A stretch of 64,000 nt of DNA from Bacteroidota bacterium (GTDB taxonomy: Bacteria; Bacteroidota; Ignavibacteria; UBA10030; SZUA-254), in assembly GCA_036522515.1 (NCBI GenBank), contig DATDFQ010000043.1:248001-312000 (forward strand). The letters are read 5' to 3'. The notes beneath the pieces were generated by a model that worked only from the letters and a program-made list of their open reading frames with translations, had not been told where the DNA came from and did no database searches. Positions 9,630 through 56,657 of the stretch are shown here, piece after piece (positions within the stretch are counted from its first letter, which is position 1; each line of letters begins with the position of its first letter). Position numbers and translations under genes: made by a program.

Positions 9630-9704
9630 TGGGCGCTACTGGGATCGAACCAGTGACCTTACGCGTGTGAGGCGTACGCTCTGAACCAGCTGAGCTAAGC
9701 GCCC
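9630..9704 (-). tRNA. tRNA-Val (anticodon CAC)
   Basis: The minus strand folds into a complete cloverleaf. The acceptor stem is GGGCGCT/AGCGCCC, the D arm contains AGCTCAGCTGGTTCAGAGC, and the anticodon stem TACGC/GCGTA encloses the loop CTCACAC, giving anticodon CAC. The T arm is ACTGG-TTCGATC-CCAGT. The discriminator base is A and CCA is not encoded. It decodes GTG valine codons, which are frequent in this GC-rich genome. It sits about 100 bases upstream of the PyrR leader on the same strand. Confidence 0.98.
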
Positions 9705-9748
9705 TTGATGATCAATTGAGACTCGATTCAGACGGGAATCGCGGCCTT

Positions 9749-9777
9749 AATATACGGAAGTTAGAGTCGCTTATCAA
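9749..9777 (-). promoter_or_regulatory. Promoter of tRNA-Val
   Basis: TTGATA and TATATT are separated by 17 bases on the minus strand. The -10 box ends 44 bases before the tRNA 5' end, leaving room for a short leader removed by RNase P. The -10 sequence is identical to that of the pyr promoter, the btuB promoter and the promoter at 27572-27600. Confidence 0.65.
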
Positions 9778-9819
9778 GCGGCGGAGGGGGGTTGCCGATT
9801 TCTCCGCCCAACGGATAAA

Positions 9820-9981
9820 CCGCAGGCTAAAGCCTGCGGCTACCGAACCCGAAACATCAGAAGCCGCGGACAAGACCAAGGCATCGGTAGGCGCGACCTT
9901 CAGGTCGCGTGGAGTTTAACGCAGGCTAAAGCCTGCGCCTACCAAACCCGAGGCATCGGTGGCCGCAACCCTCAGGTCGCG
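9820..9981. repeat. REP-like palindrome array, copy 1
   Basis: Three clear palindromes occur: CGCAGGCTAAAGCCTGCG at 9821-9838, CGCGACCTTCAGGTCGCG at 9892-9909 and CGCAGGCTAAAGCCTGCG again at 9920-9937. A degenerate fourth (GCAACCCTCAGGTCGC) lies near 9964. The spacers share CTACC, AAACCCGAGGCATC and GGTAGGC with copies at 43079 and 50407. The units lie between genes and could fold as RNA or DNA hairpins. Confidence 0.85.
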
Positions 9982-10205
9982 AAACGAGGGGCAACGAAAC
10001 TGAGCAGGCACGTATGACAGTCGGACGATGAAATGATCAGCACATTAATATTTTTTCATGAACGGATTCCACTGTTGACTGCCGCCGGTGTGAAATCATG
10101 GAAAGGCTCGCGATAAATCCGATTCGGTGTGAAGATTTTTCACAATCGTGTGATAATTTCGGATGAAATAGGGTATTCATCCTCCCCCGCTAGGTGTATT
10201 CCTTA

Positions 10206-10234
10206 TTGTCTGACCCTCATTCTGAACCTATCTT
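10206..10234 (+). promoter_or_regulatory. Promoter of the lipoprotein gene at 10358
   Basis: TTGTCT and TATCTT are 17 bases apart, giving a predicted start near 10241. The 28-bp palindrome then occupies about positions +8 to +36 of the transcript. It is predicted from sequence only. Confidence 0.5.
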
Positions 10235-10248
10235 ATTGCAGGATGTAT

Positions 10249-10276
10249 CATGTCAGTGATGCGCATCACTGACATG
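10249..10276. promoter_or_regulatory. Perfect 28-bp palindrome (candidate operator or 5' mRNA hairpin)
   Basis: The left half CATGTCAGTGATGC is followed directly by its exact reverse complement, with no mismatch. It lies just downstream of the predicted start of transcription and about 80 bases before the lipoprotein start codon. As DNA it could be an operator for a dimeric repressor. As RNA it would form a hairpin of about 12 base pairs at the 5' end. No second copy was noticed in the window. Confidence 0.7.
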
Positions 10277-10357
10277 TGGAACAGCACAAAGGGACTAGGT
10301 AATTTATACACAGCTTTACGGCAAATCCAATCCGCAATTCATCAAAAGGAGAGATCT

Positions 10358-11053
10358 ATGGTGAACAAACTCAAAACACAACCCCGCGTCATCATCGCTA
10401 TGGTGCTGGTATTCGGGGCGATTGCCTGGCTTCTTTCAGGCTGTTCGAAGACCCAGGATGGTCCGGTCTCCAGCTCCAGCGTGTCCGAACCCGTGAGACT
10501 CGTTGCCGGAGCGGGAAATGGCGCACCGAGCGGGGCGCATTACAACCTGAATATCATCGGTGTTCCGAAGGGAAAGACGGCCGATATGACCAACTCCGAC
10601 GGCCACACCATCTTTGTAGCGCTCGACGGAAACACAAAGATCATGCTGAGTCCCGGCGATTTCCAGGTGCTTGACCGCAACGGAACCGACGGTTCCGCTT
10701 CGTTCCAGTTGCCGAATCCGGACTCGGGTAACACCGGCACAACGACCTACTCGGTGTTCGCAAGAGCGCTCGGAAAGCCGGGTGGAAGCGCCTTCAGTAC
10801 CACCTGCGGGACGGATTCTCTGGGAACGACGTATTGCTCGACCGATACCGCCGTATTCGTCCGAAACAAGGGAAAGGGCTCCTTTACGAACGTAAGCAAG
10901 GAGCTGCTCTACATCTACGCATTGATTAACGGGACGCTTACCCGGATCCCCCTCTTCGATTCGAGTTTGCAGGATTATTACTGGGGTTATACGAACAACG
11001 GTTTGAGGCTGCTCCAGTTGCGGTTCTACCAGGTCCCCACGACTGTTCCCTAA
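10358..11053 (+). CDS. Lipoprotein of unknown function
   Basis: The 231-residue protein starts at an ATG preceded by AAAGGAGAGATCT, a strong ribosome binding site; frames open further upstream cross the palindrome and are not used. A lipoprotein signal ends in WLLSGC (Cys29), followed by a Ser-rich linker. The rest is rich in Gly, Asn and Thr and looks like a beta-sandwich: HYNLNIIGVPKGKTADM, GHTIFVALDGNTKIML, TYSVFARALGKPGG and a C-terminal aromatic strand. Two Cys (in TTCG and TYCS) may form a disulphide. I do not recognise a named family. It is a single-gene unit with its own promoter and terminator, facing away from the tRNA/pyr genes. Confidence 0.8.
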   Translation: MVNKLKTQPRVIIAMVLVFGAIAWLLSGCSKTQDGPVSSSSVSEPVRLVAGAGNGAPSGAHYNLNIIGVPKGKTADMTNSDGHTIFVALDGNTKIMLSPGDFQVLDRNGTDGSASFQLPNPDSGNTGTTTYSVFARALGKPGGSAFSTTCGTDSLGTTYCSTDTAVFVRNKGKGSFTNVSKELLYIYALINGTLTRIPLFDSSLQDYYWGYTNNGLRLLQLRFYQVPTTVP

Positions 11054-11081
11054 TACAAGAGGGCAAGCTGCATCGTTTGCA

Positions 11082-11120
11082 CGGCGCGGGGTGAGTCTCC
11101 GCTCACCCCGTTGCTTTTGT
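11082..11120 (+). terminator. Rho-independent terminator after the lipoprotein gene
   Basis: The plus strand reads GGCGCGGGGTGAG, a six-base loop TCTCCG, CTCACCCCGTTGC and then TTTTGT, a GC-rich stem with a short T run about 30 bases after the stop codon. The convergent uvrC gene ends ten bases further on and may use the same hairpin. Confidence 0.75.
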
Positions 11121-11129
11121 AGGCTCCCG

Positions 11130-13016
11130 TCAGGACGGAAGGACTTCATCCTCCGCAAAGTACTCCTTGATCTTCGACCCAACCTTTTCGCCAACGACTT
11201 CGGCTAACTGCTCCTCGGTCGCGAACTTGACCCCCTGAACCGAACCAAACGCTTCAAGTAATTCTTTCGCCCTCTTCTTCCCGATTCCCTCAATCAGGTC
11301 GAGCTCGGTCCGAAGCGTCCGCTTTTCGCGGAGCGAGCGATGATAGGTAATTGCGAATCGGTGCGCCTCGTTCCGGATGCGCTGGAGGAGTTTGAGCCCC
11401 GATGAGCTTTTCGGGATCGACTGGGGTTCGGGGGATCCCGGCACGAACACCTCCTCCAACCTCTTTGCAAGGCCGATAACGGGGGTCGTTTTAACGCCGA
11501 GGCGCTCGAGGACTTCGACCGCGCTTGACAGCTGCCCCTTTCCGCCATCCACCATGATCAGGTCGGGGAGTTCCCCCTGCTCGGAAAGCAGCCGGGCGTA
11601 TCTCCGCTCGATCACTTCGCGCATGCTCGCAAAATCGTCGGGTCCGTCAACCGACCGGACTTTGAACTTGCGATACTCGGACTTTCTCGGCCTGCCGTCC
11701 TGGAAGACCACCATAGACGCCACGCTGTCGGATCCCTGTGTGTTCGAAATGTCGAAGCATTCGATCTTGCGCGGCGCGTTCGCCAGGCCCAGATCCTTCT
11801 GGAGGGCCTTGACGGGGTGGGGAGCCTGCTCCTTCAGCTTGTCTTTCTGCAGTCGCAGCGTCTCGAGCATGAACTGGGCGTTTCTCTTGCACATCGCCAT
11901 CAGTTTCGCCTTGTCGCCGATCTTGGGGACGGTGATCCGCACCCTGTCGTTTCGACGCCCCCCGAGCCAGCTCTCGACAGCTGCGGAATCCTCCAGTTCA
12001 ACCGGAAGAAATATCTCGGAAGGGATGTCTTCCGCATGGAGGTAGTACCGCTGAAGAAATTGCCCGATGATCTCTGCCTCCGTGCTTCCCTCCACACCGT
12101 TCATGTAGGCGTGCTGGCGCCCGATGATCTTGCCGTCCCGGACCCTGAAGACGATCCCGCACGCGTCGTTCCCCTCCGCGGCGGCGGCAAAGAGATCGCG
12201 GTCGATCATCTCGGAATCGACCACCTTCTGCCGCTCGTCGTAGACGGTGAGCTGGCGTATCTTGTCCCGCAACACGGCTGCCTCTTCATATCGCATTTCA
12301 CCTGATGCGCGTTCCATTTGATCCGCAAGCGATTTCACCAGCGTCGAGGTCTTTCCCCTTAGGATTTGGATCACCTCGCCGATCATTCCGTTGTAGTTCT
12401 CTCGCGACACCAGGCCTTCGCAGGGCCCGTCGCATTTCTTGATGTGGTAATCGAGGCAAATCTTGATTTTCTTCTTGAGAATCGATTCCTCATCGATGAA
12501 GTAATTGCAGCTCCGGACTTTGTAGATCTCCCTGATCATCTTGAGAGAGCTGTGCATGTTCTTCACATCCGTGTAGGGGCCGAAATACTTTGAGCCGTCC
12601 CGGATCACCCGCCGCGTGGCGAAGACGCGGGGATAGGGTTCATGCGTCACCACGATGTAGGGGTAACTCTTATCGTCCTTCAGATCGATATTGTACCGGG
12701 GTTTCAATTGCTGGATCATCGAGGTCTCGAGGATGAGAGCTTCTACCTCGGAATCCGTGACGATCAGTTCGACATCGCGGATCCGGGACGCCAGCGCCCT
12801 GAGGCGGGGTTCCCTGCCGTGGGATTTCTGAAAATACTGCCTCACCCGGTTCCGGAGGTTGACCGCCTTCCCCACGTAGAGTACCTCCCCTGTGGAACTC
12901 TTAAACTGATACACTCCGGGCTTCTGGGGAAGATTTTGAAGTTTTTCGGCGAGAGCCGGCTCAGTCCCGGCTGAGATGGGGGCTTTTGGTGCCTGACCTT
13001 CCTGATCTTCGATCAT
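11130..13016 (-). CDS. uvrC: Excinuclease ABC subunit C
   Basis: The 628-residue protein follows the UvrC layout. The GIY-YIG nuclease is at the N-terminus (KPGVYQFKSSTGEVLYVGKA), a Cys-containing segment with CLDYHIKKCDGPC follows, then a UVR motif near residue 205, an RNase H-like endonuclease (ECFDISNTQGSDSVASMVVF) and C-terminal helix-hairpin-helix repeats (LIEGIGKKRAKELLEAFGS). It makes both incisions around bulky DNA lesions with UvrA and UvrB. I chose the ATG at 13016 because it overlaps the stop of the preceding gene as ATGA; an upstream in-frame codon would lengthen it by 12 residues inside that gene. Confidence 0.96.
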   Translation of the reverse strand: MIEDQEGQAPKAPISAGTEPALAEKLQNLPQKPGVYQFKSSTGEVLYVGKAVNLRNRVRQYFQKSHGREPRLRALASRIRDVELIVTDSEVEALILETSMIQQLKPRYNIDLKDDKSYPYIVVTHEPYPRVFATRRVIRDGSKYFGPYTDVKNMHSSLKMIREIYKVRSCNYFIDEESILKKKIKICLDYHIKKCDGPCEGLVSRENYNGMIGEVIQILRGKTSTLVKSLADQMERASGEMRYEEAAVLRDKIRQLTVYDERQKVVDSEMIDRDLFAAAAEGNDACGIVFRVRDGKIIGRQHAYMNGVEGSTEAEIIGQFLQRYYLHAEDIPSEIFLPVELEDSAAVESWLGGRRNDRVRITVPKIGDKAKLMAMCKRNAQFMLETLRLQKDKLKEQAPHPVKALQKDLGLANAPRKIECFDISNTQGSDSVASMVVFQDGRPRKSEYRKFKVRSVDGPDDFASMREVIERRYARLLSEQGELPDLIMVDGGKGQLSSAVEVLERLGVKTTPVIGLAKRLEEVFVPGSPEPQSIPKSSSGLKLLQRIRNEAHRFAITYHRSLREKRTLRTELDLIEGIGKKRAKELLEAFGSVQGVKFATEEQLAEVVGEKVGSKIKEYFAEDEVLPS

Positions 13017-56362: not shown

Positions 56363-56412
56363 ACAAGAACGTTGCACCAACCCACCTTCCCGCGAAGGTA
56401 TTCTGGGTGATC

Positions 56413-56630
56413 ATGCCGGTCGGTCTCCTGGCTTTTCCCGACCCCGGGCGGTCTTCCCATCCGGATCCGATCTGAACCGGAACCGAACAGTGACTTACGA
56501 GCCCGAAGCTCAATTCCGCCGGAATGACCGGACGGAATCGGGATTACAGTTGCGGGGCAGCTTCCGAATTCTCCATGGTCCCACGCTGAGCGCGGACCGG
56601 GAGGCACGGAATTCCCTTCACCGGCACGAA
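56413..56630 (-). promoter_or_regulatory. Cobalamin (adenosylcobalamin) riboswitch
   Basis: The minus strand contains the conserved blocks in order: GGTGAAGGGAATTCCGTG, GCTGCCCCGCAACTGTAA, AAGTCACTG and the B12 box AGCCAGGAGACC (56422-56433). Lengths and order match the cobalamin riboswitch family. The RNA starts just after the promoter at 56658-56686 and is followed by a terminator stem before btuB. Confidence 0.95.
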
Positions 56631-56657
56631 GTATGGAAAAGAACTTGATTCAACGGC

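Follow-up and report, generated by a model that had tools for sequence, protein, structure and literature searches.

The window that we analyzed, a stretch of 64,000 nucleotides from a Bacteroidota genome, raises a simple question: why does a perfect 28-bp palindrome lie between a predicted promoter and the gene for a lipoprotein? The first-pass annotation had offered two answers, an operator for a dimeric regulator or a hairpin in the mRNA, and on our reading of the sequence both are still the leading candidates. Our tentative preference is for a DNA operator just past the point where transcription of the lipoprotein gene would start, an explanation that we would place somewhat short of an even bet. 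If it is right, the site would offer a way into the regulation of a family of uncharacterized secreted proteins that is highly conserved and has a sporadic distribution, ranging from Patescibacteria to Bacteroidota and archaea. The facts of wider value are that this sporadic lipoprotein family is so highly conserved and that its gene shares a block of promoter sequence with another locus.

The palindrome and its copy number

The palindrome (10249-10276, no strand) reads CATGTCAGTGATGCGCATCACTGACATG, with halves CATGTCAGTGATGC and GCATCACTGACATG; it is ungapped and identical to its own reverse complement. With equal base frequencies, a hand calculation puts the chance of a palindrome of this length at about 64,000 x 4^-14 = 2e-4 per window. 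Among 60 simulated windows of the same length and composition (first-order Markov), the arms of ungapped palindromes never exceeded 11 bases. Similarly, when we surveyed the window and 20 further 20-kb stretches of the genome, 464 kb in all, this palindrome was the longest without a gap, and the runner-up was 22 bp (11-base arms). Because both the simulations and the survey of the genome top out at 11-base arms, we consider the palindrome a real feature that chance would not be expected to produce, as had been claimed from the sequence at first sight. It is a true and unusual sequence feature, and its likely kinds are all already known.

Further copies of the half-site, which the first-pass annotation had suggested looking for, did not turn up: there is none with 0 or 1 mismatch elsewhere in the 3.5-Mb genome, so no regulon is visible. 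If 2 mismatches are allowed, then there are 12 further places, every one of them with 2 mismatches. The 24-bp symmetric form, with its center left open, has no other site in the genome within 3 mismatches and no match in viral contigs, and the 341-bp upstream region has no match in plasmids.

Several other kinds of element can be set aside. A repeat or mobile element is ruled out, as the palindrome is present once in the genome. Like REP and other dispersed palindromic repeats, it is palindromic and intergenic, but its sequence is unlike the CGTTCCCACG, GAAGGATCT, and CCGCAGCC families of the sampled genome. It also differs, as had been noted, from the REP-like repeats that lie upstream of it (9821..9981, no strand). 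An intrinsic terminator or attenuator is ruled out as well: there is no run of T (the next bases are TGGAACAGCA), and the terminator scan did not call it. A scan of the window with Rfam at gathering scores yielded a tRNA and a cobalamin riboswitch and nothing else, and the palindrome matched no structured RNA family. Our searches of the literature for a similar palindrome led to general papers only (among them PMC7509114 and PMC8053128).

Two observations from these searches are worth recording. The cobalamin riboswitch is at 56401-56640 on the minus strand (RF00174, 58.9 bits). Also, a dispersed palindromic repeat, CGTTCCCACG...CGTGGGAACG, is found at many places in the genome (L120, L126, L128, L129, L132, L134, and L136).

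The promoter module and its copies

The promoter that had been predicted upstream of the palindrome gains support from comparison within the genome. When the genome was searched with the 370 bp upstream, there was a match on contig C15 (78% over 72 bp, E = 1e-7; L138, G000:C15:218514-218589, minus strand). Aligned without gaps, 55 of the 78 positions of the window's module (10160..10237, plus strand) are identical, including CTAGGTGT-TTCCTTATTGT and CTATCTTAT. From this alignment, the putative -35 hexamer is TTGTCT (10206..10211, plus strand; TTGTTT in the C15 copy), and the putative -10 hexamer, 17 bp further on, is TATCTT in both copies (10229..10234, plus strand). That is, the two promoters have TTGTnT, 17 bp, and TATCTT at the same positions. 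The likeness stops just past the -10, shortly before the palindrome, which begins 14 bp after it. Transcription would start 6-8 nt past TATCTT, and this fits the placement of the palindrome at about +8 to +36 that the first-pass annotation had proposed. We infer that the 78-bp module is an active promoter. A scan of 9700-11150 for consensus promoters made just one call, on the minus strand; it missed the window's promoter because just 8 of the 12 positions of TTGTCT-17-TATCTT agree with the consensus.

The C15 copy precedes a gene for a receiver-domain protein, which adjoins a gene for a LuxR-type response regulator. Since the block of promoter sequence is common to the lipoprotein gene and this two-component signaling locus, a regulatory link between them is testable. 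A search with a profile of the two copies found a third, weaker copy, also on C15 and 14 kb away (E = 0.02, G000:C15:232537-232601), which precedes a gene for a predicted secreted protein. In 15 relatives, the best match to the profile was partial, with E = 0.03. We did not count four sub-threshold matches in these relatives (E = 0.03-0.5) as copies, and none of them has a strong inverted repeat downstream. Sub-threshold matches across the order (E = 0.07-0.5) were likewise rejected: individually they look like chance, and several seem to be the first part of a gene for a ribosomal protein.

We also noticed that the spacer between the -35 and the -10 contains an inverted repeat, CCTC-N5-GAGG, in two of the three copies examined (10206-10234 on the plus strand, L138, and L174); it is degenerate in the window. 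Upstream of the promoter, at 10128-10155, TGTGAAGATTTTTCACA is followed by ATCGTGTGA. These are repeated TGTGA boxes, and they differ by one base from the spacing of Rex sites.

The C15 promoter has a strong inverted repeat of its own, GGCTATCTTATGGAA with TTCCATAAGAGAGCC (14 of 15 pairs, 11 bases apart), which begins at the -10, where the likeness to the window stops. We scored 4,000 random 84-mers from the sampled stretches of the genome: 0.025% equaled or exceeded the C15 repeat, and not one reached the score of the window's palindrome. Thus two of the three promoter copies carry an inverted repeat. The two repeats share no sequence and their offsets differ, as the C15 repeat overlaps the -10 while the palindrome starts 14 bp past it, and the weaker third copy has no inverted repeat downstream.

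Operator, hairpin, or product of mutation

If the palindrome is an operator, then a dimeric regulator would occupy the two-fold symmetric site just downstream of the start and would block initiation or early elongation of the lipoprotein gene. The inverted repeats at the window's promoter and at the C15 promoter would both be sites for proteins, and each promoter would have its own repressor. The DNA has much of what such a site should have: its two-fold symmetry is perfect over 28 bp, and it adjoins a predicted promoter whose module recurs in the genome. The symmetry extends through the four central bases (GCGC), which form the loop in the predicted fold and which a hairpin would not need to be symmetric. 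The recurrence on C15 of the 78 bp upstream, with hexamer positions and 17-bp spacing kept, also argues for an operator, and so does the overlap of the C15 repeat with the -10. Little of the 5' arm of that repeat would be transcribed, since the repeat spans the -10 hexamer, and if the -10 is right, the arm could work only as DNA. This favors a DNA-level explanation for the C15 site and, by analogy, for the palindrome.

Other evidence weighs against an operator. There are no further sites for the same regulator, and an autoregulated repressor would usually have a second one, although a regulator with a single site is compatible with this. No regulator gene adjoins the palindrome. The core, GTGAT-N4-ATCAC, occurs just twice in 3.5 Mb, which is not above chance. 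The lack of an inverted repeat at the third promoter copy, and the unrelated sequences of the two repeats that do exist, also count against it. Finally, most operators need less than 28 bp of perfect site. QacR, a repressor of the TetR-family type, has a 28-bp site, and operators of this type resemble the palindrome in being long, two-fold symmetric, and near the start of one target gene. The palindrome, a candidate site, differs from them in its perfect symmetry and in lacking both an adjacent or known regulator gene and a second site.

A broader version of this idea is that the promoter block is reused before unrelated genes, each time with another long inverted repeat around the point where transcription begins and hence with a dedicated regulator, and that the lipoprotein gene was acquired from a distant lineage and wired into this scheme. 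We give this little credence.

The next explanation, which is possible but which we think unlikely, is that the palindrome acts in the mRNA, as a 12-bp stem, capped by a 4-nt loop and located close to the 5' end, that shields the transcript from nucleases or structures its leader. The RNA of the palindrome alone is predicted to fold stably (-16.6 kcal/mol, z = -4.9), and the stem persists in the predicted fold of the leader, but z drops to -1.8 for the 154-nt leader. Given the putative start, about 8 nt at most would separate the hairpin from the 5' end. The stem-loop would end 81 nt before the start codon of the lipoprotein gene (10358), which leaves the ribosome site free. The loop bases, GCGC, are also self-complementary, and to our knowledge they are not a stable tetraloop. 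Also, the stem is wholly Watson-Crick and only half G+C. The C15 repeat fits a hairpin poorly, as its 5' arm overlaps the -10 and a transcript from that promoter would miss most of the arm. According to a review (PMC7509114), stem-loops at the 5' end stabilize bacterial mRNAs. The ompA-type stabilizers discussed there resemble our case in having a strong stem near the (here putative) 5' end and a free ribosome site, but the loop of the palindrome is self-complementary, and its hairpin is a predicted one.

It is also conceivable, though we doubt it more, that the palindrome is a functionless product of mutation, in which template switching or inverted duplication perfected an imperfect repeat. 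These processes yield perfect symmetry whatever the selection. A single-copy palindrome that has no sequence relatives, and no conservation that we could see in its own genome or at 53 distant loci, is what they might leave behind. The location speaks against an accident: the palindrome is placed exactly after the promoter module, and the other close copy of the promoter also has a strong repeat, in almost the same position.

Least likely is an activator or repressor site of the CRP/FNR type. The consensus core of such sites is GTGA-N6-TCAC, which the inner 14 bp of the palindrome fit, and there are several TGTGA-like half-sites or boxes upstream (around 10090-10155), but the core is not enriched in the genome, and a position downstream of the promoter is ill-suited to an activator. 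The exact core occurs twice, about what chance would give; apart from the palindrome, it is present only where an open frame begins. There are four other 18-mer sites with 2 mismatches: two inside long open frames, one at the start of a frame, and one (CAGTGATTCAAATCAATA, L070) between open frames. Looser 18-mer matches number 67, versus 19 for a reversed-pattern control; we did not use this excess because we judged the reversed pattern, with its stop-like, rare words, to be a biased control. We rejected a CRP/FNR regulon for this lack of enrichment of the core.

The lipoprotein gene and its relatives

The lipoprotein gene (10358..11053, plus strand) encodes 231 amino acids with the lipobox LSGC, and AGGAGAG lies a few nucleotides before its ATG. 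An in-frame open stretch, 10250..10357 on the plus strand, starts at an ATG inside the palindrome. We place the start at 10358 instead, because the signal peptide begins there, and we judge the open stretch to be a noncoding 5' leader. Our crude survey of inverted repeats upstream of genes, which gave a background of 225 approximate genes, lacks the lipoprotein gene because the crude gene caller starts it inside the palindrome.

The first-pass annotation did not recognize this lipoprotein, and we fared no better: no Pfam family matches it, two matches to NCBIfam are both below the cut-off, and it has no match among the sequences in the PDB. Its structure is modeled as a beta-rich domain (mean pLDDT of 88), which weakly resembles jelly-roll and carbohydrate-binding folds. 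No fold in the PDB matches the model at a Foldseek E-value of 0.001 or less (the best is 0.006) or at a VIA-align Z of 5 or more. An envelope function is a candidate, and its sole basis is the lipoprotein signal.

In a scan covering 84,980 species, with one genome per species, relatives of the lipoprotein were found at 53 loci. Going by their record titles, we place them in Patescibacteria, Chloroflexi, Bacteroidota, Acidobacteria, Gemmatimonadota, Planctomycetota, Firmicutes, archaea, and others; their protein identity is mostly 28-69%. When the lipoprotein (P0001) is aligned with 43 of the 53 relatives, 14 columns are invariant; they lie around GAHYNLNIIG and a C-terminal set of W, N, R, and Y. 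Closer to home, the gene is absent from all 97 other genomes of the order and from all 390 other sampled genomes of the class, so it looks to have been acquired, or else lost almost everywhere. The scattered distribution of these sequences suggests wide horizontal transfer. No match was found on plasmids or phages.

Up to 450 bases upstream of the 53 distant relatives (28-69% identity, across phyla), no perfect ungapped palindrome has arms as long as 9 bases. At such distances, this result has little bearing on function either way. Several of these upstream regions contain stems of unrelated sequence. For example, the stem upstream of L051 has 13-base arms with A/T ends and is terminator-like, and upstream of L045 there is an A+T-rich repeat (10 pairs) that lies 24 nt before the match.

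The neighbors of the palindrome and the lipoprotein gene are a pyrR-type gene, a tRNA gene, and uvrC. Among 14 stretches from the same family, 6 (L101 to L106) share the window's order, with tRNA-Val flanked by the pyrR-type gene and uvrC; the remaining 8 are cut short or are arranged differently. A search of these 14 genomes did not find the lipoprotein gene. In the only genome from the same genus, a matrixin-like gene lies between tRNA-Val and uvrC. The content of this interval (9705-11130, compared with L101) is variable: the lipoprotein gene here and the matrixin-like gene in the genome from the same genus.
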